A stretch of DNA of 64,000 nucleotides from Thiobacillus denitrificans ATCC 25259 (GTDB lineage Bacteria; Pseudomonadota; Gammaproteobacteria; Burkholderiales; Thiobacillaceae). This document shows positions 23,024-37,876 of this stretch, in pieces (positions within the stretch are counted from its first letter, which is position 1; each line of letters begins with the position of its first letter). Location of the stretch: assembly GCF_000012745.1 (NCBI RefSeq), contig NC_007404.1:1674001-1738000 (forward strand), written 5' to 3'. Below the pieces are notes generated by a model. The model was not told where the DNA came from. It ran no database searches and saw nothing but the letters and a program-made list of their open reading frames with translations. A program made the translations under genes and the position numbers.

Positions 23024-24094
23024 TTATACGCGCATCGCGCGTTCGCCGTGGGCTGCGAAAAATTCGAGCACGCGGCGCGGCAATTCATGTAGAGGGGCAA
23101 CCTCGTGCGTCGCGCCAACCGCAATGGCTTCCTTGGGCATGCCGAACACCACGCACGAGGCCTCGTCCTGCGCCAGGTTGTAACCGCCCGCCTTTTTCAT
23201 CTCGAGCATGCCGGCGGCACCATCCTTGCCCATGCCGGTCAGGATCACGCCGACCGCGTTCTTGCCGGCCGTAAGTGCGGCCGAGTTGAAGAGTACGTCG
23301 ACCGAGGGACGGTGGCGATTGACCGGCGGACCCTGGTCGAGCTTGGTCATGTAGTTGGCGCCGCTTCTGACGAGCAGCAGATGCGAGTGTCCGGGCGCGA
23401 GGTAGGCATGCCCGGGCAGCACACGCTCGCCGCCCTCCGCTTCCTTGACCGAGATCTTGCACAACTTGTCGAGCCGGTTGGCGAAGGAGCGGGTAAAGCC
23501 TTCCGGCATGTGCTGCGTGATCAGAACACCCGGGCTGTCGGGCGGAAGCTGCATGAGGAAGTCCTTGATCGCTTCGGTGCCGCCGGTCGAGGCGCCGATG
23601 ATGATGAGCTTCTCGCTGCTGGTGAGCGGATTGCGCACGGCGGCCAGCGTCGTTCCGCTTTGCCCGCCCTGCGCGTGCGGTGTCCGCGGCTTGATGCGCG
23701 CGCGCGCGGCGATACGGATCTTGTCGGCAATGAGATCGGTGTACTCGAGCATGCCGCTCTGGATCGACATCTTGGGCTTGGTGACGAAGTCGACCGCACC
23801 AAGTTCGAGCGCCCGCATCGTGATTTCCGAACCCCGTTCGGTCAGCGACGACACCATGACGACCGGCATCGGGCGCAGGCGCATGAGCTTTTCGAGGAAC
23901 TCGAGGCCATCCATCTTGGGCATCTCGACGTCGAGCGTAAGCACATCGGGATTGGTTTGCTTGATGAGTTCGCGCGCGGCGATCGGGTCGGGCGCGACGC
24001 CGACGACCTCCATGTCCGGCTGACTGTTGATAATTTCGCGCATCACCCCGCGGATCAGCGCGGAGTCGTCGACGATCAGTACCTTGATTTTCAT
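23024..24094 (-). CDS. cheB: Chemotaxis protein-glutamate methylesterase/deamidase CheB
   Basis: The protein has 356 residues. The N-terminal receiver ([17 protein letters not shown], phospho-acceptor in [12 protein letters not shown]) controls a C-terminal methylesterase. The catalytic motifs are present: Ser in [12 protein letters not shown], His in TQHMPEGFT and Asp in the GMGKDGA segment. It removes methyl groups from receptor glutamates, opposing CheR. The start at 24094 is preferred because AGGAA lies 7 bases upstream. It follows cheD after 27 bp. Confidence 0.96.
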
Positions 24095-24121
24095 TTTTCG
24101 TTCCTGCACAGCCGCGGTCGG

Positions 24122-24730
24122 TCAGAACAGATCGACCTCGCCCGCGACGACGTTGCTCTTGAGGCGGCTCGCGTAATCCTGTTCGCGTTTCACCAGCGTG
24201 TAGTTGTTGAGTTGTTTCAGCTTCTTGACCAGCACCCTGCCGGTCCGGGGGAAGAAATAGACCTTGCGCGGATGCACGTCGTTGAGGTCTTCCGCCACGA
24301 CGCGGATGTTCTCGGCGCGCAGGAAATCGCGCACGAACTGGGCATTACGCTCGCCGACGTTCATGGTCGTGAAACCGCGCAGCACGTTGCCGCCGCCGAA
24401 TACCTTGGCCTCGAGATTTTCGCGGCGTGCGCCGGCCTTGAGCAGCTGGTTGATCAGCACCTCCATCGCGTAGGCGCCATAGCGCATCGATGCCGAAAGC
24501 GGGTTGCCCGGATCGCCGCCGCCGTCGGGCAGCATGAAATGATTCATGCCGCCGATGCCGGAGACGCGGTCTCGGATGCAGGCCGCGACGCAGGAGCCGA
24601 GCACCGTGACGATGAGCATGGGCTTGGCCGTGAAGTAGTACTCGCCCGGCAATATCTTGGCCGTCTCGCAGTCGAAATTGCGGTCGTAGTACAGGTTGGT
24701 CGCCAGCTGCTCCTCGATCGCCGAGTTCAT
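24122..24730 (-). CDS. cheD: Chemoreceptor glutamine deamidase CheD
   Basis: The protein has 202 residues. CheD deamidates receptor glutamines. The catalytic Cys is in [12 protein letters not shown] and the His in GGMNHFMLP; the FGGGNVL motif is present. The C-terminus ends GEVDLF, a short acidic-hydrophobic tail not needed for the fold (see findings). The ATG overlaps the cheR stop as ATGA, so the two are translationally coupled. The order cheR-cheD-cheB forms an adaptation module. Confidence 0.95.
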
Positions 24731-25596
24731 GCAGGCGTCCCTGTACGGCGATGGCGCGGGTCGAGTTCGTAGACGGTCTTGCCGCGAAGCTTGAACGCGT
24801 CGCAGGCGTAGAGAAAGTTCTCGGAATGGCCGGCGAACAACAGGCCATCGGGCTTCATCAAGGGAACGAAGCGCGTGAGGATTTTGCTCTGCGTCGGTTT
24901 GTCGAAATAAATCATCACGTTGCGGCAAAAGATCGCGTCGAACGGCCCGTTGATCGGCCACGTGCTGGCGAGGAGGTTGAGCGGTTTGAACGTCACGAGC
25001 TGGCGCAGTTCCGGCCGCACGCGCACGAAGCCGGCGCGCTCGCCGACGCCGCGCTGAAAAAAGCGCTTGACCCGGTCGCGGGCCAGCTTGCTGACACGCT
25101 CTTCCGGATAGACGCCGGCGGCGGCGGTGGCGAGCACGTTGGTATCGATGTCGGTCGCGACGATCGTCACGGGAGGCGTGAAGCTGTCGTAGACCTCGCA
25201 CGCGGTCATGGCGAGCGAATACGGCTCCTCGCCCGTCGAACTGGCGGAGCACCAGATCGATGCCGGGCCTTTGAGCTTGCGCAGGTGCTCGGCGAGGATC
25301 GGAAAGTGATGCTCTTCGCGAAAGAACGCGGTCAGATTGGTCGTAAGCGCGTTGGTGAACGCCTCCCACTCCTCGCCGTCACATCCGGCTTCGAGACGGT
25401 CGAGATATTCCGAGAACGAATTGAGCCCCTTGGCCCGCAGGCGCCGGGCGAGCCGGCTGTAGACCATCTCCTGCTTGCTTTCGGCGAGCGCGATGCCGGC
25501 TTGCCGGTAGATCAGCGCTCGTACGCGTGCAAAGTCGCGTGCGGTGAATTCGAATACCTTGACGTTATCGGCTTGGCGTTTGGGTTGGGCGGTCAT
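24727..25596 (-). CDS. cheR: Chemotaxis protein methyltransferase CheR
   Basis: The protein has 289 residues. CheR methylates receptor glutamates with S-adenosylmethionine. The N-terminal helical domain is followed by the Rossmann methyltransferase domain with [17 protein letters not shown] (the SAM motif), [15 protein letters not shown] and [13 protein letters not shown]. Three of the four receptors in the cluster end with a tethering pentapeptide that CheR could bind. The ribosome site before the start is weak. A long G+C-rich hairpin lies between this gene and the receptor upstream. Confidence 0.96.
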
Positions 25597-25710: not shown

Positions 25711-27384
25711 CTACGCCGCTTGCATTGCGCCGCTCGCTCCGCCCGAAAGCGCCGTGTTCGTTCCGGATGCGAGGGCACGGCCTGCGCCGGGGCGGCGTCC
25801 CGCGTCCCGGCCGCTCACGAGTTTGAACGTGTCGACGATGGCCGCGAGTTTGACCGCCTGATCCTGCAGGGTCTCGGACGCGGCCGCGACCTGTTCGACC
25901 AGCGCCGCGTTCTGCTGGGTGAGTTCGTCCATCTGCGCCACGGCCTGGTTGACCTGCTCGATCCCGGTACTCTGCTCCTGGCTCGCACTCGCCGTGCCGG
26001 CAATGATGTCGGCGACCAGTTGCACCGAGGTCACGATGTCGTCCATCGCGTCGCCCGCCTCGTCGACGAGCTTCCTGCCGGCGTCGACCTGGGCGACCGA
26101 GTCGTTGATCAAGGTCTTGATCTCCTTGGCCGCACCCGCGCTGCGCTGCGCCAGGTTGCGCACCTCGGTCGCGACGACGGCGAAGCCTCGTCCCTGCTCG
26201 CCCGCGCGCGCTGCTTCGACGGCTGCGTTCAAGGCGAGGATGTTGGTCTGGAAGGCGATCCCATCGATGACGCCAATGATGTCGGAGATCTTGCGCGAGC
26301 TTTCCTTGATCGAGCCCATGGTGGTGATCACCTTGCCGACAACCTCGCCGCCGTTTGCCGCGATCTGTGCGGTAGAGGTGACGAGCTGGCTCGCGTGACG
26401 CGTCCCCTCGGCGTTCTGCTTGACCGTGCCGGTCAGCTCCTCGAGCGAGCTTGCGGTCTCCTCGAGACTCGACGCCTGCGATTCGGTCCGCGCCGACAGA
26501 TCCGCGTTGCCTTTGGCGATTTCGGCCGCGCCGTTGCCGACGAGGTCTGTGCTCTGCTTGATCTGGCCGATCAGGAGCTTCATGTTGATCTGCAGCACGC
26601 GCAGCGACTGCATCAGTCTGACGAGTTCGTCAGCCCCCCCCGCGACGATGCGGCCGGTGAGGTCGCCCGCGCTCATGCGCTCGATGTCGGCGCGAACGCG
26701 GTCGAGCGGTATGACGACGCTGCGATACGACAGGACTGCGAACAAGGCGGCGAGCGGCACGCCGAGCCCTGCGATCCCCATCAGCCAGCCTGTGAACTGG
26801 CCGTTGGTCTCGGTCGTCGCAAGCCATGCCAGGACCGCCATCACCACGAAAATGAGCGCCATCGACGACGAAGCGATCGCAAGCAGGGTCTTGAGCGCCG
26901 GCGCACGGCGCGCGAAGCAGCGGTCGAGCGACGAGCACTTGATCGCCTTGCCCTCGACGATCCCAAGGCCCTTGTCGCCCGCCTTCACAGCGCGATACAC
27001 CCGCTCGGCTTCCTTGACCTGCTCACGGTCCGGCTTGCTGCGGATCGAAGCATAGCCGACGGTCTTTCCATTCTCGATGAGCGGTGCCACATCGGCATCG
27101 ACCCAGTAGTAGTCGCCGTTCTTGCAGCGATTCTTGACCAGGCCGCTCCACACCTTGCCGCTCTGGAGCGTCCGCCAGAGGTCGGCGAAAGCCTCCTCGG
27201 GCATGTCGGGGTGACGCACGATGTTCTGCGGCGCGCCGATCAGTTCGGCTTCGCTGAAGCCGCTGACGTCGACGAAATCCTGGTTGACGTAGGTGATGTT
27301 GCCGCGCAGGTCCGTTTTCGACACCACGGTTTCGGTATCTTTCAGGACGTATTCGACGTTGGTTACGGGTTGATTGGATCGCAT
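25711..27384 (-). CDS. Aer-like PAS chemoreceptor (methyl-accepting chemotaxis protein)
   Basis: The protein has 557 residues. The N-terminal PAS domain (about 1-120) resembles Aer: [41 protein letters not shown] and [16 protein letters not shown]. Aer binds FAD and senses redox or oxygen state. Two membrane helices (about 163-185 and 195-217) anchor it without a periplasmic domain. A HAMP region and the signalling hairpin follow, with the conserved tip [20 protein letters not shown]. The C-terminus lacks the WxxF pentapeptide found on the other three receptors, so it may depend on them for adaptation. FAD binding is inferred from similarity only. Confidence 0.92.
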
Positions 27385-27709: not shown

Positions 27710-29389
27710 TCAGAACTCTTCCCAATCGCCGCCGTCGTTGCCTTGGGCGGCTGCCAGCTTCTTCGGGCGTGCGGCCGGCACGGAGGCAGGACGCGGACGG
27801 GTCGGCAACGGGGCGACGCGCGGGGCCGACACCGGAACTTCCCGGCGCTGCGCGTATGCACCGTCGAGTCTGAACACGCTGACCGCGTCGGCGAGCTTGG
27901 CCGCCTGCTCCTGCAGGCTCTCGGCGGCAGCGGCCGCCTCTTCGACCAAGGCCGCGTTCTGCTGGGTCATCTCGTCCATCTGGCCGACGGCCTGGTTGAC
28001 CTGCTCGATCCCGGCGCTCTGCTCCTGGCTCGCGGCGGCGATCTCGCTCATGATGTCGGTGACGCGTTTGACCGAGCTGACGATCTCGTCCATGGTCTTG
28101 CCGGCTTCGTCGACGAGCTTGCTGCCGGCGTCGACCTTGCCGACGGAGTCTTCGATCAGGGACTTGATTTCCTTGGCGGCACCGGCGCTGCGCTGGGCAA
28201 GATTCCTGACTTCGCTGGCGACGACGGCGAAGCCCCTGCCCTGCTCGCCGGCACGCGCCGCTTCGACGGCGGCGTTGAGCGCAAGGATGTTGGTCTGGAA
28301 GGCGATGCCGTCGATGACGCCGATGATGTCGGAGATCTTCCGCGAGCTGTCCTTGATGGAGGCCATGGTGTCGACGACCTGGCCGACGACTTCGCCACCC
28401 TTGACGGCGACGTCGGCGGTGGAGACGACGAGCTGGTTGGCCTGGCGGGCGTTCTCGGCGTTCTGCCGTACGGTGCTGGTCAGTTCTTCCATCGAGCTCG
28501 CGGTCTCTTCGAGGCTCGAGGCCTGCGATTCGGTGCGCGAGGAGAGGTCGGCGTTGCCCGAGGCGATCTCGCGCGAGGCGACGGCGATGGTGTCGGCCGC
28601 TTGACGAATGCTGCCGACCGTCACCGTCAGATTTTCGCGCATGCCGTTGATGGCATATAGCAGGCTCGAGTTATCGCCTTTGTCCAGGGTGATCGACCGC
28701 GAAAAATTACCCTCGGAGATCGCCTGCGCCATTTCGACGGCGTAGACCGGTTCGCCACCGAGCTGTTTCATGATGTGGCGGACCAGCCAGACAACGATGA
28801 CGCTTGCGACACCGAGCGCCAACACTACCAGAACGAGCGTGATCGTAAGCATGCGCTGACTGAAGGCGTTCACTTCCGCCTTGGTCTGCTCGACCGCGGC
28901 GTTCTTCGCCTTGTTGAGGTCCATGAGGCGAACACGGATGTTGCGCCATACCGGTGTCTCTTCCTCACGGATCGTTGTCATCGCTGCCGCCTGGTCGGCG
29001 GCGGCAAGGGACACGATCTTGGCCTGAAGGGGGATCTGCTGTTCGCGGAAGGCGACAACTTCTTGAAGAACTTTAAGATCGGCTGGGGAAGCGGCAGCGA
29101 GCACCAAGGCCTCATCGCTCGTTTTCTTGAATCCCGCCGCAGAGTCTTCAAGGTTTTTGTAGGCCGCCTGGTTGGACGGGTCCATCACGATATTGCGCAG
29201 CGCCTGGCCCATCTGCAGCCCGTGCGCGTACAAGTTTGTCACGGCGCGCGACAGCGCGAGATCCTGTTCCACAAAGCGGTCGAATCTGTCCTTGTTTCCT
29301 TGCATTCCGATCAGTGCGACGCTGATCGCGACGCCGAAGAGCAGGAAAACCAACCCCATGCTTAAAACGATTTTTGACTTCAGCTTCAT
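27710..29389 (-). CDS. Methyl-accepting chemotaxis protein with converted signalling domain (copy A)
   Basis: The protein has 559 residues. TM1 is at about 9-29 and TM2 at about 182-207, with a ~150-residue helical periplasmic domain of the four-helix-bundle type between them. HAMP follows, then the cytoplasmic hairpin with the [20 protein letters not shown] tip. The C-terminus carries a linker rich in Pro/Arg and the CheR/CheB tethering pentapeptide DWEEF. The ligand is unknown. The last 885 bp (from about residue 265 to the stop) are identical to those of the receptor gene at 33478, whereas the N-terminal sensor parts differ, which indicates recent gene conversion or duplication. Confidence 0.95.
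27712..28596 (-). repeat. 885-bp direct repeat, copy A (receptor signalling module)
   Basis: Identical base for base to 33480-34364 by direct line-by-line comparison. It covers the HAMP-distal signalling domain, linker and pentapeptide of this receptor. The identity breaks at the stop codon on one side (TGA here, TAG there) and at 28597/34365 on the other. Confidence 0.95.
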
Positions 29390-29586
29390 TTCTATCGAAC
29401 CCCTGATTCATTCATTGATTAATGACAGTCGCCCTGGATCGCACCGAGCTGCTGTCCATCGGGCCGGGAATACGGAAGCGGCTTCACTTCGCGGAGGCCA
29501 CCCCGTGCGGCCTCCCGCCGGAGATGAACAGCGATACCGCAGCAACCCGTAGCCCGTCGTCATTGAGAGATACACCTCAGTAGTAG

Positions 29587-29613
29587 AAATCGGCGCGATT
29601 CCGTCTGCCTTGA
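29587..29613 (-). promoter_or_regulatory. FliA promoter candidate of receptor copy A
   Basis: On the minus strand: TCAAGGCA, 11-bp spacer, GCCGATTT. The -10 box matches 6/8 and the spacing is exact. It lies about 200 bp upstream of the receptor start at 29389, in the gap after the preceding receptor gene. Confidence 0.6.
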
Positions 29614-29683
29614 TACCCCACGGCAGGTCATTCGCACCATCGATCCGTAGTCCGTTCGTCGGATGCCTCGGCCCACGAGACGG

Positions 29684-31378
29684 TCAGAACTCTTCCCACT
29701 CGCCGCCGCTTGAACCCTGGATAGCCGCGAGCTTCTTCGTGCGCACCACGGGTGCCGCGGCCGTATGGGTCCGGGCCGGCAGCGCCGCGATCCGCTCGTT
29801 CGATGTCAGCTGTTCCGGGCGCTGCGTGTTGACGCCGGCGAGCCTGAACACGCTCACCGCCTCAGCCAGATTGGCCGCCTGGTCCTGCATGGAAGACGCC
29901 GCCGCTGCCGCCTCCTCCACCAGGGCGGCATTCTGCTGCGTCACTTCGTCCATCTGGGCGATGGCCTGGTTGACCTGTTCGATGCCGGCGCTCTGTTCCT
30001 GGCTGGCCGCCGTGATCTCGCCCATGATGTCGGTCACGCGCTTCACGCTGGCCACGATCTCGTCCATGGTGGCGCCCGCCTGACCGACCAGTTTGCTGCC
30101 TATGTCGGCCTTCTCCACCGAATCGCCTATCAGGGTTTTGATTTCCTTGGCCGCACCCGCACTGCGCTGCGCGAGGCTGCGTACCTCGCTGGCAACCACC
30201 GCGAAGCCCCGCCCCTGTTCGCCCGCTCGCGCCGCTTCCACCGCCGCATTGAGCGCCAGAATGTTGGTCTGAAACGCGATGCCGTCGATCACGGCGATGA
30301 TGTCGACGATTTTCCTTGAAGACTCGTTGATCGAGCCCATGGTGTCGACCACTTGCGCGACGACCGCTCCGCCCTTGACCGCCACTTCGCTGGCCGAGAC
30401 CGCCATCTGATTCGCCTGGCGCGCATGGTCCGCGTTCTGCTTCACCGTCGAGGTGAGCTGTTCCATCGAGGAAGCGGTCTCTTCCAGAGAACTTGCCTGT
30501 TCTTCCGTCCGGCTCGACAGATCCAGGTTCCCCGTCGCAATCTCGCTCGAGGCGGTGGCGATGGCGTCGGTGCCGAGGCGTACCTGGCCGACAATCTTCA
30601 CCAGACTGTCATTCATGTCCTTCAGCGCCTGCAGCAATCGGCCCGTTTCATCCTTGCCTTCCACCTCGATGCGGCTCGTCAGGTCGCCGGCGGCCACCGT
30701 CTGCGCAACCTTCACCGCCTGGTTCATCGGGCGCGTGATCGAGCGCGTGATCCAGAACGCGAAGCCGATTCCCATCATGAGCGCCACGATGCTCAAACCG
30801 ATCAACAGCATCCGGCCGCTTTCATACTGCCGATGGATATTCCCTGCGGTCGCATCGATAGCCTGCTTCTGATAGCGCGCAAGGTCGTGCAGGCTCTCCA
30901 GATACGCATCCAGCCTGGGCTTCATGTCTTCATCGACGAACTTCTTTGCGCCCAGAACATTCCCGGCCGCTTTTTCCTTGAGCGCGGCGTCGCGCGCCGC
31001 GAGGTAAGCGCTACGCTTGTCCGCGATGGCCGCGAACAGGGCCCTGGATTCCGCGTCCGTGAGCAGCGACTCGAGCTGTTTCTGCAATGCGATGCCGCCC
31101 TTGCTGGCCGCGGCACTCGCGTCCACGAAAAATTTTTCGGTTTCCGGATTATTGGTCTTGGCCGCCGCGAGGGCTCTTACCGCATTGGCATTGATGATGC
31201 TTTCCCACTCATTGATGATGCGCGCCTTGTGCATTTCATTCTTGACCAGCGAGTCGGTCATCATTCCGACCGTCTGCAGGCGCCAGACGCCAATCACCGC
31301 CACCACGACCAACAGCAGCAGGACACTCGCAAAACCCAGCCCGAGCCGAGCGCCGATCTTCAAATTCGTAATTTTCAC
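29684..31378 (-). CDS. Methyl-accepting chemotaxis protein
   Basis: The protein has 564 residues and starts at GTG 31378 with GGAA upstream. TM1 is at about 10-31 (FASVLLLLVVVAVIGVW) and TM2 at about 190-211, with a helical periplasmic sensor between them that resembles the Tar-type four-helix bundle. HAMP and a complete signalling hairpin follow, and the C-terminus is the tethering pentapeptide EWEEF. Unlike its two neighbours, its signalling domain is clearly diverged at the DNA level, so it has escaped the conversion seen between 27712 and 33480. Ligand unknown. Confidence 0.95.
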   Translation of the reverse strand: MKITNLKIGARLGLGFASVLLLLVVVAVIGVWRLQTVGMMTDSLVKNEMHKARIINEWESIINANAVRALAAAKTNNPETEKFFVDASAAASKGGIALQKQLESLLTDAESRALFAAIADKRSAYLAARDAALKEKAAGNVLGAKKFVDEDMKPRLDAYLESLHDLARYQKQAIDATAGNIHRQYESGRMLLIGLSIVALMMGIGFAFWITRSITRPMNQAVKVAQTVAAGDLTSRIEVEGKDETGRLLQALKDMNDSLVKIVGQVRLGTDAIATASSEIATGNLDLSSRTEEQASSLEETASSMEQLTSTVKQNADHARQANQMAVSASEVAVKGGAVVAQVVDTMGSINESSRKIVDIIAVIDGIAFQTNILALNAAVEAARAGEQGRGFAVVASEVRSLAQRSAGAAKEIKTLIGDSVEKADIGSKLVGQAGATMDEIVASVKRVTDIMGEITAASQEQSAGIEQVNQAIAQMDEVTQQNAALVEEAAAAASSMQDQAANLAEAVSVFRLAGVNTQRPEQLTSNERIAALPARTHTAAAPVVRTKKLAAIQGSSGGEWEEF

Positions 31379-31589
31379 AATTCCAGTTCCAAAGTTAACC
31401 CGTCATGAAAGGGCAACGTTCGAATAATTCGGTTATCCGCTGAAAACCGGCGAATACCGGCAATTACTATTGCGCCCCTCGTCTGCAATGAATTCATTGA
31501 ATCGAACAAACATTTCCCGAAACTCCATGTCGCTCTTCTCCAAATCAGCCGGATGGCACGATGCGGAGGCGCAAACAGGACCTGCGCAA

Positions 31590-31608
31590 GGGCGGCCCGG
31601 GGCCGCCC
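31590..31608 (-). terminator. Possible terminator after the SoxB-like gene
   Basis: GGGCGGCCC (31590-31598) and GGGCCGCCC (31600-31608) form a strong G+C inverted repeat 18 bases after the stop of the SoxB-like gene. Only TT follows on the minus strand, so intrinsic termination is uncertain. Confidence 0.35.
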
Positions 31609-31625
31609 CTGACGGGGGATGACGC

Positions 31626-33359
31626 CTACTTCGTCACCGACCCCAAGGGTTGCATTTCGCGCAGGCCATGCTCTGCTGCCGGCAGCGGATTGACGAGCCG
31701 GATACGATTCAGCGGCAGGTTTTCAGGGGTGACCGTTTTGCCTGGCAAGGATTCGATATAGCGCTTCACCACATCGGTGCCATCGAGTGTGCTGCCATCC
31801 TCGTCCTTCAGCACGGTGATGTTTTTGGCCGGGACGCGGTTGATCAGATTCGGCACCAGATCGTAATAGTAGCCGGCGACCGTGTAGCGGGCCTGCGGCT
31901 CCAGCGGCTGGCCGTTGACGCGGATGTTTGAGACGCGATTCCCCTGGGGCGCCTTCGGATCGAAGTCCGCGGTCAGCCCGCTGTAGCCCGCAGTCCAGCC
32001 GTTGACCCAGGTGTTCGTACGCCCTGCCTCTTCCTGCGGCGCGCCCTCCAGGGTCTTCTTGATCTGCGCGCCGGTCAGTTCACCCTTGGCGATCTGCGGT
32101 CCGACCGGCATGAAGTGATAGAGGTCTTCAAGCTTGATCGGTCCGGCTCCCACCGTGGTGCCATAACGGAAACCGGTGATGCCGCCGAGCTGCGCGCCCG
32201 TCATCACGCGAAACGCGTCGGTCAGGAAATCGTGGGAGCTGCCTTCGGTCACGGCCGGCATCGCCTCATCGCTGAAATTGCTGCGATACAGGGGGACCTT
32301 GGTCTGGCCGATCACCGTATCGATCGGATAACGAAGGAACGAGCCGTTGAACGGATTCTTGATCTTTCCAGCTTGGAACTGCGGTCCGGTCACGTAGGGC
32401 CGACGCACCGACTGCACGGCCGCGGCGATCGCGGGGTCGGGCTGGAACCGGTCCGTGATGCGATGAGAGACGTATTGCTTGTCGATGACCCGACCCTCTT
32501 TCACACGGATGCTCAATTCGCCCACGACCTGGCCGTCCATGCCCTGCTCGACCAGCAGCGTGCCGTGTTTCGACACGACGGGTTTGACCGTGATCTCGTG
32601 CTTGTCGGACGACAGAATGACGTCGACGCCCGGAATCCGGTCGGCCAGGGTCAAATTGCCGTGCAGGCCCAGCTCGGAAATGACCACGACCAGATCGACG
32701 TCCTGCTCGCGCAGCAGCTTGACGTATTTTTCATACTCCGCTGCACCATTGGTGAACTTCAAACCCTTCGTGATGTTGGGGTCGCCCGCTTGGGGTCCGC
32801 GGTCGGAGGTGAATCCCAGAATCCCGATGCGCAGACCGTTGACGGTCTTGATCGTGTAGGGCGCCGCCACGTGCTGTCCGTTCCGCGCTTCGGCGCCGGG
32901 GTAGTTGTCGTAGTAGAGATTCGAAATGACCGGGTTCCAGTTGGCCATGGCCGGACGACCGACGAAATACTCGATGAACTTGTCCGCGCCATAGACGAAG
33001 TCCCAGTTGCCCGGCGCATAGGCATCGATGCCGAACAGGTTCAGGACATTGATCATCGCCTCGCCCTGGGTGAACAGCGCCTCGGCGCCGCCGTGCAGCG
33101 TGTCGCCGGTATTCACCAGCAGCGTCTGCTCCGGTTTGGCCCGGCGGATGTCCTTGATCAACGTAGCGATGCGCGCCACGCCGCCCTCGCTCTGGCCGTT
33201 GCCGTCGCTGCGCACATTCGGATGCGGGATCAGATGGCCATGGAGATCCCCCATGTGGATGAGAGTGACCTCGCCAGTGCCGCTTCCTGCGTGCGCCAGT
33301 GAAAAAGGCGATAGCGCCGCACATACCGCCACCGCCAGCCGTGTAGACCTGAATTTCAC
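31626..33359 (-). CDS. SoxB-like periplasmic metallophosphoesterase/5'-nucleotidase family protein
   Basis: The protein has 577 residues. It starts at GTG 33359 (AAGGAA five bases upstream), followed by a signal peptide cut after SLAHA (residue 24), so it is periplasmic. The N-terminal calcineurin-type domain keeps D38-x-H40, D86 (VNTGDTLHGG) and a SoxB-like GNWDFVYG (N118) in place of the nucleotidase GNHEF. Two expected metal-ligand His positions differ: ISELG (E229) instead of SH-G, and SSDKHE (D252, H254) instead of GHTH. The C-terminal domain (about 340-540) is of the 5'-nucleotidase type. SoxB hydrolyses sulfate from SoxY-bound thiosulfate; whether this protein does, or is a phosphatase or a binding protein, is open. 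It lies between chemoreceptor genes. Confidence 0.8.
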   Translation of the reverse strand: MKFRSTRLAVAVCAALSPFSLAHAGSGTGEVTLIHMGDLHGHLIPHPNVRSDGNGQSEGGVARIATLIKDIRRAKPEQTLLVNTGDTLHGGAEALFTQGEAMINVLNLFGIDAYAPGNWDFVYGADKFIEYFVGRPAMANWNPVISNLYYDNYPGAEARNGQHVAAPYTIKTVNGLRIGILGFTSDRGPQAGDPNITKGLKFTNGAAEYEKYVKLLREQDVDLVVVISELGLHGNLTLADRIPGVDVILSSDKHEITVKPVVSKHGTLLVEQGMDGQVVGELSIRVKEGRVIDKQYVSHRITDRFQPDPAIAAAVQSVRRPYVTGPQFQAGKIKNPFNGSFLRYPIDTVIGQTKVPLYRSNFSDEAMPAVTEGSSHDFLTDAFRVMTGAQLGGITGFRYGTTVGAGPIKLEDLYHFMPVGPQIAKGELTGAQIKKTLEGAPQEEAGRTNTWVNGWTAGYSGLTADFDPKAPQGNRVSNIRVNGQPLEPQARYTVAGYYYDLVPNLINRVPAKNITVLKDEDGSTLDGTDVVKRYIESLPGKTVTPENLPLNRIRLVNPLPAAEHGLREMQPLGSVTK

Positions 33360-33382
33360 AAAATTCCTTTCGAACTGAATGG

Positions 33383-33441
33383 GATGCCCGTCAGGGTGGG
33401 CATCGGGACCCTGCCCCGCACAGCCGGATTGTGGATCCGGC
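33383..33441 (-). other. Two hairpins in the leader of the SoxB-like gene
   Basis: GATGCCC (33383-33389) pairs with GGGCATC (33398-33404), starting 24 bases before the GTG start. GCCGGAT (33423-33429) pairs with ATCCGGC (33435-33441), about 37 bases after the upstream receptor stop. The distal one may be a weak terminator for the receptor. The proximal one could control translation. Confidence 0.45.
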
Positions 33442-33477
33442 ATGATTCATCGATAGCGTGTCTTCAGAGGCAAACGA

Positions 33478-35196
33478 CTAGAACTCTTCCCAATCGCCGC
33501 CGTCGTTGCCTTGGGCGGCTGCCAGCTTCTTCGGGCGTGCGGCCGGCACGGAGGCAGGACGCGGACGGGTCGGCAACGGGGCGACGCGCGGGGCCGACAC
33601 CGGAACTTCCCGGCGCTGCGCGTATGCACCGTCGAGTCTGAACACGCTGACCGCGTCGGCGAGCTTGGCCGCCTGCTCCTGCAGGCTCTCGGCGGCAGCG
33701 GCCGCCTCTTCGACCAAGGCCGCGTTCTGCTGGGTCATCTCGTCCATCTGGCCGACGGCCTGGTTGACCTGCTCGATCCCGGCGCTCTGCTCCTGGCTCG
33801 CGGCGGCGATCTCGCTCATGATGTCGGTGACGCGTTTGACCGAGCTGACGATCTCGTCCATGGTCTTGCCGGCTTCGTCGACGAGCTTGCTGCCGGCGTC
33901 GACCTTGCCGACGGAGTCTTCGATCAGGGACTTGATTTCCTTGGCGGCACCGGCGCTGCGCTGGGCAAGATTCCTGACTTCGCTGGCGACGACGGCGAAG
34001 CCCCTGCCCTGCTCGCCGGCACGCGCCGCTTCGACGGCGGCGTTGAGCGCAAGGATGTTGGTCTGGAAGGCGATGCCGTCGATGACGCCGATGATGTCGG
34101 AGATCTTCCGCGAGCTGTCCTTGATGGAGGCCATGGTGTCGACGACCTGGCCGACGACTTCGCCACCCTTGACGGCGACGTCGGCGGTGGAGACGACGAG
34201 CTGGTTGGCCTGGCGGGCGTTCTCGGCGTTCTGCCGTACGGTGCTGGTCAGTTCTTCCATCGAGCTCGCGGTCTCTTCGAGGCTCGAGGCCTGCGATTCG
34301 GTGCGCGAGGAGAGGTCGGCGTTGCCCGAGGCGATCTCGCGCGAGGCGACGGCGATGGTGTCGGTGCCGTGGCGGACTTGGCCGACGATATCCGCGAGGC
34401 TCACGTTCATGTCCTTCAGGGCCTGCATCAACTGGCCGGTTTCGTCCTGGCTCTGCACTTCGATTTTCTGCGTGAGGTCGCCCGCTGCGACGCTTTCCGC
34501 AATGCGCACCGCTTGGTTCAAAGGACGCGTGATCGCGCGTACTAGCCACACGCCAGTCAAGCCGGCGAGTAGCACGCCGGCGACGATCGCGAATACCGAA
34601 ATATTGCGCACCATGACGAAGCGCGACTGTGCGGCCGCAAACTCCGACTGGGCGAGCTTGAGCTGAGACGCGATGAGGGCTTCCGCGTTGGCCCGCACGG
34701 CCGGGTAGGTCTCTCTCATCGGCCCCTGCAGAATTTCGCCGGCTTGCTGAAAGTCGTGCGCGCTCAACGCGGCAAGCACGGGAACCACGCCCTCGCGCCC
34801 ATACTTCTGTCGGCTCGCGCTGAATGCGTCCGCGAGCGCCTTTTCTTCGGAGCTCAGGTGCGAGGCGAGGAAGGTCTTCCAGATGCCGTCGATTTCCGTG
34901 ATTGTGTTTTTGATGTCGTTGACGCGTTGGTCAACGACCGCGGAATCGTCCGGGAATGCCGAGAGCTGGCCGGCGACGGCCTCGCCGACGATGATCTGGC
35001 TGCCGTTCATCAGCGCGTTGATGCGCTCCAGGTGCCCCAGCCCGACAACCCTGTCTTCATAGACGGTTTTAAGCGACCCATTCGTGGCGCTGAGGCTGAC
35101 AAGGCCAAGCCCTCCAATGGCGGTCAGCAGAATGGATAAAAAACCGATCACGAAGACCAGCCGTGACTTGATGCTCAGGTTCGCTAACATTTCCAT
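33478..35196 (-). CDS. Methyl-accepting chemotaxis protein with converted signalling domain (copy B)
   Basis: The protein has 572 residues. TM1 is at about 12-34 and TM2 at about 196-217; the periplasmic part has the Tar-like helical bundle layout ([20 protein letters not shown]). HAMP ([20 protein letters not shown]) leads into a signalling hairpin and the pentapeptide DWEEF. From about residue 278 to the end the DNA is identical to the receptor at 27710, although the sensor halves are unrelated in detail. The first ATG (35196) and the third codon (35190) are both possible starts. It follows cheW, so it is probably part of the cheA-cheW transcription unit. Confidence 0.95.
33480..34364 (-). 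repeat. 885-bp direct repeat, copy B (receptor signalling module)
   Basis: Identical to 27712-28596, in the same orientation, offset by 5,768 bp. There are no synonymous differences over 295 codons, while the third receptor between them differs throughout. Confidence 0.95.
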
Positions 35197-35275: not shown

Positions 35276-35779
35276 TCAGGCTGCCAATTTGTCGATCAGG
35301 CCCATTTCGGAGCTCGACATGAGCTTGTCGATATCGACCAGGATCAGCATGCGGTCGTCGAGCGTGCCGAGACCGATCAGATAGTCGGTATCGAAAGTCG
35401 TCCCGATTTCCGGAGCAGGCTTGACCTGCTCGGGCGCCAGCGTCATGACGTCCGAAACGCTGTCGACCACCATGCCGACGACGCGGCCACCGATGTTCAG
35501 GATGATCACGACCGTGAACTGGTCGTAGGTGGGCTCGCCGAGGTTGAACTTGATCCGCATGTCGACGACCGGGACGATCGTTCCGCGCAGGTTGACGACC
35601 CCCTTGATGAAGGCCGGCGCATTGGCGATGCGCGTAACCGGCTCGTAGCCGCGGATCTCCTGCACACGCAGGATGTCGATGCCGTATTCCTCACGCCCGA
35701 GCGTGAAGGCGAGATATTCGTTGCCGTCACCTTCCGCTTCGGTCGGCGCGCTGGACGGGGTTTGCATCGGGAGAGTCAT
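35276..35779 (-). CDS. cheW: Chemotaxis coupling protein CheW
   Basis: The protein has 167 residues. CheW bridges receptors and CheA. Core motifs are present: [41 protein letters not shown] and [13 protein letters not shown]. The start at 35779 is favoured because AAGGA lies about 8 bases upstream; an ATG at 35788 would overlap that site. It follows cheA after 21 bp and precedes receptor copy B after 79 bp. Confidence 0.96.
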
Positions 35780-35800
35780 GGATTGCATCCTTCTGGAGTA

Positions 35801-37876
35801 TCAGGAATAAATGGGATCCGCGTTGAGCTGGTGGCTGGAACGCAGCAGCGCAGAGACGTCGAGGATCAGCGAAACACCGCCGTCGCCAAGGATGGTGGCG
35901 CCGGAAATGCCCGCCACCCTGCGGAAGTTCGATTCGAGGTTCTTGACCACGACCTGCTGCTGGCCGACCAAGCTGTCGACGAGCAGCGCCGCTTTCTTGC
36001 CTTCGGATTCGAGAATGACGATGATGCCGCGCGCGGCGTCGTCGAAGCTCGGCTCGATCGCGAAGATCTGGTAGAGCGGAATCAGCGGCAGATACTCTTC
36101 GCGCACCTTGACGACCTTGCCCTGGCCGGCGATTTCCTTCACGTCGGCGGCCGCCGGCTGAAGGGACTCGATGACGTAGCCGAGCGGCAGGATATAGACC
36201 TCGTCGCCGACCTTCACCGACATGCCATCGAGGATCGCGAGCGTGAGCGGCAACGAAATCGCGATCGTCGTGCCGGTACCGGGCACCGACTGGATTTCGA
36301 CGTTGCCGCCCATCGCCGTGATATTGCGCTTGACGACGTCCATGCCGACGCCGCGTCCCGAGACGTCGGTCACGAATTCGGCCGTGGAAAATCCGGGGGC
36401 AAAAATGAGCTGCCAGACTTCGCTGTCGGGCATCGCGTCGGACACCGGAATACCTTGCTGCCGGGCCTTGGCGAGTATCTTTTCGCGATTGAGGCCGCCG
36501 CCGTCGTCGGTCACCTCGATGACGATGTTGCCGCCTTGATGGGCCGCCGACAGGGTCAGCTTGCCGCTTTCGTTCTTGCCGCTCGCGCGCCGTTTTTCGG
36601 GCATCTCGATGCCGTGGTCGACGCTATTGCGGACGAGATGGGTCAGCGGGTCGACGATGCGCTCGATCAGGCCCTTGTCGAGTTCGGTCGCGGCGCCGCG
36701 CGTGGCGAACTCGACCTTCTTGCCGAGCTTGGCCGCCAGGTCGCGCACCATGCGCGGGAAGCGCGAGAACACATAGTCCATCGGCATCATGCGGATCGAC
36801 ATCACCGCTTCCTGCAGGTCCCGGGTGTTACGGGCGAGCTGGCTCGCGCTGTTGAGCAGTCGCTCGTGGACGATGGGATCGAGCGCGTTGATGCGCTGCT
36901 CGATCATGGCCTGGGTGATGACGAGTTCGCCGACCAGGTTGATCAGCTGGTCGACTTTTTCGACGCCAACGCGGATCGATGAAGATTCGGCGCTGACGCC
37001 CTCCTTGTCGGTCGCGCGCCGAGCGGGAGTTCTGGCCTCACCAGCCTCCACACTGGCAGACGACGCAGCGGCAGACCCCGGCGCCACCGCGGGCGCCTCG
37101 GTCTTGGCCTCTTCGAAAATTCCGTAGCCCGGATCGGCGTCGGCCGTCGCCGCAGCAGCAGGCGCAGCCGGCGCGGGCTCGCTGCTGCCATGGGTGATCT
37201 TGAGATCGTCCGGGTCGAGCACGAAGGAACAGATCGCGACGATGCTGTCGACGCCTTCGCTCGTGACGAGGGTAAAGGCGACCCGCTTGTCGGCCAGCGT
37301 CTCCTGCGTGACGGTGCCGAGCAGGCCGAGTTCGACGGCGAGCGCGTCGACGTCGCGCTGCGGCACCTCGGGCATTTCGATCCGGAAACGGTAGTTTCCG
37401 TCGGCGTCCGCCACAGGCGCGGCGGACGGCGGGGGGACCTCCGCAGGCGGCTGCGCCACCGTCTCGATCACCGGCACCTCGGCAAGAATCCCCTGGGACA
37501 GGGCCTTCAGCCGCTGGCAAACCGAATCGACCGACGACTGGTCGACGCCCGCGCCGTGGTGATGGCCTTCCATCTGCATCGCGAGGATGTCTTTCGCCAC
37601 CAGAAAGGCGTCGACGTGCTCTCCGGTCAGCGCCATTTCGCCCTTGCGAATGCGGTCGAGCAGGGACTCGAGCATGTGGGTGACTTCGGTGATGTCGGTG
37701 AAGCCGAAGGTCGCGGCGCCGCCCTTGATCGAATGCGCGGCGCGGAAGATCGCGTTGAGGTCCTCGCTGTCGGGTGCCGCCACGTCCAGAGCCAGCAGCA
37801 GCTTCTCCATTTCGGCGAGGAGCTCGTCGGCCTCGTCGAAAAAGACCTGGTAGAACTGGCTCATATCAATAGTCAT
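35801..37876 (-). CDS. cheA: Chemotaxis sensor histidine kinase CheA
   Basis: The protein has 691 residues. Domain order: HPt (P1) with phospho-accepting H48 in FRAAHSIKGGAATFGF, a P2-like regulatory domain (about 155-245, a CheY/CheB docking type), a Pro/Ala linker, dimerisation P3 (about 300-360, VGVEKVDQLINLVGELVI), kinase P4 with N box (NSVDHGIEMPEKR), G1 (DDGGGLN) and G2 (GRGVGMDVVK), and a CheW-like P5 at the C-terminus. All catalytic motifs are present. It autophosphorylates and passes phosphate to CheY and CheB. The start ATG 37876 has GGAG upstream. It lies between cheY2 and cheW. Confidence 0.97.
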   Translation of the reverse strand: MTIDMSQFYQVFFDEADELLAEMEKLLLALDVAAPDSEDLNAIFRAAHSIKGGAATFGFTDITEVTHMLESLLDRIRKGEMALTGEHVDAFLVAKDILAMQMEGHHHGAGVDQSSVDSVCQRLKALSQGILAEVPVIETVAQPPAEVPPPSAAPVADADGNYRFRIEMPEVPQRDVDALAVELGLLGTVTQETLADKRVAFTLVTSEGVDSIVAICSFVLDPDDLKITHGSSEPAPAAPAAAATADADPGYGIFEEAKTEAPAVAPGSAAASSASVEAGEARTPARRATDKEGVSAESSSIRVGVEKVDQLINLVGELVITQAMIEQRINALDPIVHERLLNSASQLARNTRDLQEAVMSIRMMPMDYVFSRFPRMVRDLAAKLGKKVEFATRGAATELDKGLIERIVDPLTHLVRNSVDHGIEMPEKRRASGKNESGKLTLSAAHQGGNIVIEVTDDGGGLNREKILAKARQQGIPVSDAMPDSEVWQLIFAPGFSTAEFVTDVSGRGVGMDVVKRNITAMGGNVEIQSVPGTGTTIAISLPLTLAILDGMSVKVGDEVYILPLGYVIESLQPAAADVKEIAGQGKVVKVREEYLPLIPLYQIFAIEPSFDDAARGIIVILESEGKKAALLVDSLVGQQQVVVKNLESNFRRVAGISGATILGDGGVSLILDVSALLRSSHQLNADPIYS

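Follow-up and report, generated by a model that had tools for sequence, protein, structure and literature searches.

Two chemoreceptor genes of Thiobacillus denitrificans ATCC 25259 share an identical 885-bp block encoding their signalling output. This block is very probably the most recent outcome of ectopic (interlocus) gene conversion that recurs among the chemoreceptor paralogues of the genus. The sequences directly show the identity itself, the edges of the block, a third copy elsewhere in the chromosome, the discordance between sensor and module trees and the recurrence of the pattern across the genus, while the direction of copying and the enzymatic route are inferred. The window is the whole stretch of DNA that we analyzed, 64,000 nucleotides in length (positions 1,674,001 to 1,738,000 of NC_007404.1), and the genome is represented by one contig of 2,909,809 bp (handle G000; other genomes are also named by handles). 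The features of the window that enter the argument are as follows:

23024..24109 (-), CheB (Pfam)
24727..25596 (-), CheR (Pfam)
25711..27384 (-), receptor E, with a PAS sensor (ORF and Pfam)
27710..29389 (-), receptor A, 559 aa, with a TarH-like sensor, MCPsignal and a C-terminal DWEEF (ORF and Pfam)
27712..28596 (-), identical module, copy 1, in receptor A (exact match to copy 2)
29684..31378 (-), receptor B, with a 4HB sensor, HAMP and MCPsignal (ORF and Pfam)
33478..35196 (-), receptor C, 572 aa, with a TarH/4HB sensor, HAMP (217-263), MCPsignal (334-488) and a DWEEF end (ORF and Pfam)
33480..34364 (-), identical module, copy 2, in receptor C (exact match to copy 1)
35276..35788 (-), CheW (Pfam)
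35801..37876 (-), CheA-like kinase (ORF with relatives found; named by reading the sequence)

The sensor halves of receptors A and C are unlike, as originally predicted, with 29% amino acid identity. Both proteins carry the MCPsignal domain (PF00015; 193.0 and 192.9 bits, respectively, against a cut-off of 34.6), which in receptor C is separated from the sensor by a HAMP domain (51.7 bits in Pfam, cut-off 25). Receptor A gave no Pfam HAMP match at E values up to 0.001, and its sensor matched TarH at 22.4 bits, under the cut-off of 25.2. Despite the sub-threshold TarH score, the best match to the A sensor in each of 13 other genomes is 64-77% identical. In G000, C is separated from A by receptor B and a gene of the 5'-nucleotidase family (PF02872; 29684-33443). 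Because A and C are adjacent in all eight other genomes that carry both complete, this segment seems to have been inserted into the receptor array.

Direct comparison confirmed that positions 27712-28596 and 33480-34364 are identical base for base (885 bp, offset 5768) and that the bounds of the block are real, with the next base mismatching on either side. The block is made up of the first base of the stop codon, 294 whole sense codons (rather than the 295 first counted) and two bases of the next codon. On the coding strand it opens at the second base of codon 265 in receptor A and of codon 278 in receptor C (codon numbers obtained by arithmetic on the gene coordinates), some 15 codons past HAMP, whose match in receptor C ends at residue 263, ahead of an MCPsignal domain that starts at residue 334. 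At its other end it reaches the first base of two unlike stop codons, TGA in receptor A and TAG in receptor C. Both edges fall where the original prediction had placed them, at the stop codon and in the region after HAMP. No particular mechanism has to be invoked for the exact 3' edge, which lies where genes A and C cease to be alike. Within the shared module lie what we take to be the post-HAMP helices, the kinase-control hairpin, a linker and the terminal pentapeptide. None of the 129 four-fold sites differs between A and C in the 242-codon module used for the trees, and the A/C pairs of the three genomes whose modules group by orthologue differ at 34/125, 40/123 and 48/122 such sites; at the lowest of these three rates, 0/129 has a probability of 1.6e-18. 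Silent sites are homogenised in A and C and the tract edges are sharp, as gene conversion predicts. All listed repeats of at least 60 bp in the window (seed 16) lie among its four receptor genes. The intervening receptor at 29684-31378 is clearly diverged, as had been claimed, with 74% nucleotide identity to the block, and its module is not converted; the module of receptor E is 79% identical to the block and unconverted in G000.

Searching the block against its own genome returned seven matches: two in the window, one of 98% and four of 70-79%. The 98% match (G000:C1:700867-701602(-), over query positions 150-885) is a third copy that the original prediction had missed, and it belongs to a receptor, D, outside the window:

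G000:C1:699873-701720 (+), receptor D, 1.0 Mb from the window and on the strand opposite to A and C
27957..28537 (-), 581-bp exact tract in receptor A, also identical in receptor D
33725..34305 (-), 581-bp exact tract in receptor C, also identical in receptor D

Receptor D shares with A and C one uninterrupted run of 581 bp and differs from them outside this tract; its linker is unlike the A/C linker and it has no WEEF end. By sensor, the D receptors of G000 and G023 are each other's best match in the compared set (40% amino acid identity), and they have matching genes on both flanks. When D and E rows were added to the module tree, D joined the A and C modules of its own genome (support of 100/100 in G000 and 98/97 in G023). 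This grouping of D with own-genome A and C in G000 (L037) and G023 (L041), though D lacks the WEEF end, indicates that the tether is not needed for copying.

To place the window in its genus, we searched 56 Thiobacillus genomes, including the window's own, at a threshold of E up to 1e-20. Sensor A was matched in 14 of them (13 besides G000) and sensor C in 38 (37 besides G000), the weaker sensor-C matches (about 32-46% identical) being homologues rather than orthologues. Nine genomes carry A and C with both modules complete and supplied the 18 rows of the trees; genomes with A or C cut by a contig end or lacking, such as G007, G011, G021, G017 and G047, were left out. The sensor tree recovered A and C each as one clade (100/100), with the caveat that its bootstrap had not settled and that the C sensors of G023 and G050 are of odd composition. 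Forcing own-genome A and C sensors to pair was rejected in all five genomes tried, which were chosen after the module tree was seen (p-AU 8e-7 or less). The module tree (242 codons) tells another history: it requires seven changes between A and C, and a single clade of A modules is rejected (p-AU 2.7e-7). Firmly supported within-genome pairing of the modules is seen in five of the nine genomes, namely G000 (identical), G023, G022, G050 and G054 (starred). In G018, G043 and G048 the modules still sort into an A clade and a C clade, the latter with both G054 modules beside it, and those of G002 form no A/C pair. Consistent with the module tree, A and C modules are more alike within a genome than either is to its best cross-species orthologue in six of nine genomes, G000 among them, and are not in the other three (fraction identical, A-C within the genome, followed by the best orthologue of A and of C):

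G000: 1.000; A 0.890, C 0.893
G023: 0.981; A 0.890, C 0.893
G054: 0.986; A 0.848, C 0.868
G050: 0.910; A 0.835, C 0.825
G022: 0.933; A 0.887, C 0.906
G002: 0.912; A 0.887, C 0.906
G043: 0.871; A 0.916, C 0.884
G048: 0.872; A 0.916, C 0.884
G018: 0.831; A 0.901, C 0.880

Long exact runs are also shared by three receptors of G046 (660, 383 and 383 bp) and by three receptors on contig L157 of G054 (616, 617 and 671 bp), where a fourth is 74-75% identical. Taken together, the trees and runs indicate that several Thiobacillus lineages have repeatedly copied the output half between receptor genes. The process is not constant, given the orthologous grouping in G018, G043 and G048 and the absence of a pair in G002, nor has it reached every homologous receptor, with B, E and a receptor at 2.477 Mb in G000 and the fourth receptor of G054 all unconverted. 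In the module tree, two PAS-type E modules, L045 (G002 C14:100282-101985) and L046 (G022 C58:25467-27254), lie on the side of the A and C modules and apart from the other four E modules, with the fork drawn open; this suggests that conversion once reached receptor E in the G002/G022 lineage.

The original prediction had left two readings for the block, gene conversion or a very recent domain duplication, and only the former stands, with sensors that follow their orthologues and modules that, in five of nine cases, pair within the genome. It had also named modules of relatives that group with their own orthologues as evidence against conversion; in our comparison, made at the species level across the genus, such grouping was found in G018, G043 and G048 but not in the window lineage, G022, G023, G050 or G054. 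A very recent duplication that fused the module under a second sensor, and so created a new receptor, would leave identical DNA below unlike sensors, just as seen in the window. It is nevertheless very unlikely, for A and C with complete modules of their own are present in nine genomes, three of them with orthologous module grouping, and in those three (G018, G043 and G048) the two genes are neighbours and adjoin the cheA-like gene. The presence elsewhere of A and C orthologues, each with a complete module, excludes the creation of a receptor in this strain and leaves only replacement. Whole-gene duplication was ruled out by the sensors of the converted pairs in G000, G023, G046 and G054, which are 23-33% identical at the amino acid level.

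Replacement by gene conversion could proceed as follows. Homologous recombination, most likely of the RecA type, would overwrite the post-HAMP signalling module of one receptor gene with that of another and would halt where the two genes cease to be alike. On the upstream side this is the diverged HAMP region, and on the downstream side it is the hairpin end or, in the event seen in the window, the stop codon. Sensor and HAMP regions would be too unlike to take part, and the sensors of converted pairs are untouched. A second, shorter tract joins A and C to receptor D, 1.0 Mb away. In G023, G050 and G054, the likeness of A and C drops near the hairpin end, before the linker. The linker itself points to receptor C (33478-35196) as the probable donor and receptor A (27710-29389) as the recipient. 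At the protein level, the linker that A and C share scores higher against C linkers than against A linkers in all eight other genomes (means of 71.9 and 53.4, respectively, with BLOSUM62 and the last eight residues removed). The nucleotide means are 10.4 for C and 5.3 for A, with two of the eight genomes (G002 and G022) opposite. Because the eight compared genomes are related, the direction from C to A is a lean rather than proof.

Could the modules of A and C have both been replaced from an outside donor, through transformation with related DNA? The trees alone are compatible with such a donor, which could be a close strain. This route would, however, need two imports with the same end points, and receptor D carries the same type of module while the shared linker leans to the C type, all of which makes an outside origin improbable to a high degree.

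In favour of an artefact of assembly, in which a mixed consensus made two different modules identical, one can point out that repeats of this kind do break assemblies in the genus. We dropped three rows from one-contig genomes from the 44 sensor-C rows and found that 22 of the remaining 41 draft rows are cut after the sensor, leaving frames of 250-450 aa that in all 22 cases run off the contig end. By their frame ends, 19 of the 22 stop inside the module, and the other three (G064, G006 and G012) end right at its start or just ahead of it. From rounded genome sizes and contig numbers, random breaks in 885 bp would be expected in 1.9 rows, as compared to the 19 observed (P for at least 19, 1.3e-16), and counting both ends of every contig with a target of 1000 bp raises the expectation to 4.3, as compared to 22 (P for at least 22, 1.2e-13). 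Used as a control, the cheA-like gene is over twofold longer, yet no more than 7 of its 42 draft orthologues are cut or incomplete; it sits on the same contig in 21 of the 22 cut sensor-C cases. Exact overlaps of 55-141 bases between contig ends were seen in 4 of 15 compared pairs, and such overlaps are of limited use for proving exact repeats. The contig breaks back the reading of an exact repeat as support and not as proof, because assemblies also break at short shared words that purifying selection maintains. They also mean that draft genomes lose receptor genes at the module repeat and, with 22 of 41 draft C-type rows cut, that such genomes probably carry more receptors than are counted. 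Although we worked from assembled sequence, a mixed consensus is hardly credible as the source of the identity in G000: the genome is one contig, the two window copies are flanked by different sequence and end at different stop codons, receptor D departs from them outside its tract, and the separate assemblies of G023, G046 and G054 contain long exact runs with few differences. Nor would a few hidden differences between A and C overturn the conclusion of gene conversion.

As controls for likeness that arises by other means, we compared receptor pairs of G000 outside the A/C/D trio and modules of other families. All compared G000 pairs differ at 39-63 of 90-109 four-fold sites. Stretches were taken from nine other-family genomes, of which six (G031, G038, G029, G025, G039 and G028) gave at least two complete modules, G036 and G037 gave one each and G040 did not enter the comparison; the longest exact module run in the six was 59 bp, a control limited to matching modules in genomes chosen for matching the block. 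Codon bias as a cause was ruled out by the unconverted receptors of G000 and the other-family modules. Strong selection at the nucleotide level or codon bias that keeps modules alike without copying, for which one can cite the high conservation of the module protein, is opposed by these four-fold differences, the short runs and the tract edges, and has next to no probability. Among 80 loci around A-type sensors, 12 have at least two complete modules and five of those 12 are outside Thiobacillus and its kin; one of the five has a run of more than 60 bp. This locus, in Hydrogenophaga sp. 2FB, carries two receptors (L167:4436 and L167:7977) with sensors 31% identical, modules 95.9% identical and an exact run of 236 bp, and is a possible case outside Thiobacillus.

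Gene conversion of this kind is a DNA-level process that could keep the outputs of unlike receptors matched while their sensors diverge. The cell may plausibly benefit from outputs that can stand in for one another within mixed receptor arrays. A neutral process that draws on the strong conservation of the protein would fit the data equally well. More speculatively, the Thiobacillus receptor set may consist of many sensors on one continually re-copied output, with conversion favoured by selection for interchangeable kinase-control tips in a shared array, the sensors diverging freely and the output co-evolving with CheA, CheW, CheR and CheB; we regard this broader proposal as tentative and rather doubtful. 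Whatever its cause, the copying means that signalling-domain trees of chemoreceptors can mislead on receptor ancestry, and it makes Thiobacillus a genus where output-module copying can be measured.

Under interlocus gene conversion, or concerted evolution, copies within a genome resemble each other more closely than they do their orthologues, also at silent sites, and the tracts have sharp edges. The Thiobacillus modules resemble this pattern in that paralogues exceed orthologues in likeness (six of nine genomes) and the tract tree conflicts with the flank tree; they differ from it in that the unit is one protein module, copied between genes up to 1.0 Mb apart and recurrently across a bacterial genus. 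We found no description of chemoreceptor modules that undergo gene conversion or concerted evolution in the open-licence literature searched, which is no proof of absence. In Escherichia coli, mixed trimers of dimers contain receptors that differ in specificity (PMC4692393), and by analogy such mixing would favour matched output tips. As in Thiobacillus, differing sensors share there one output layer that must fit, but the E. coli trimers are a fact at the protein level, with no DNA homogenisation mentioned in the abstract of that paper (PMC4692393).

The closest precedent is in Campylobacter jejuni, whose Tlp2, Tlp3 and Tlp4 (and Tlp11) receptors have identical or very similar signalling halves that form long chromosomal repeats (PMC6433261, PMC9769880), with extensive recombination among Tlp proteins by SplitsTree (PMC6433261). 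Like the Thiobacillus genes, Tlp2, Tlp3 and Tlp4 are paralogous receptors with near-identical signalling halves and unlike sensors, although the sensors are of the four-helix (TarH/4HB) type in Thiobacillus and dCache in Campylobacter. The Campylobacter repeats are explained there as domain duplications and as repeats that could invert about 92 kb (PMC6433261, PMC9769880), whereas the orthologue trees of Thiobacillus show replacement in place. The receptor repeats of G000 are also inverted, with D on the plus strand and A and C on the minus strand, and all three lie on one strand in G023. Comparison of these two species revealed no inversion end point at D, which has matching neighbours on both sides. 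D and the che cluster occupy opposite strands in G000 and share one strand in G023, so some rearrangement separates the two genomes, though not one through the D module. What is new with respect to the Campylobacter work is the orthologue test showing replacement in place, the recurrence across a genus and the lean in the direction from donor to recipient.
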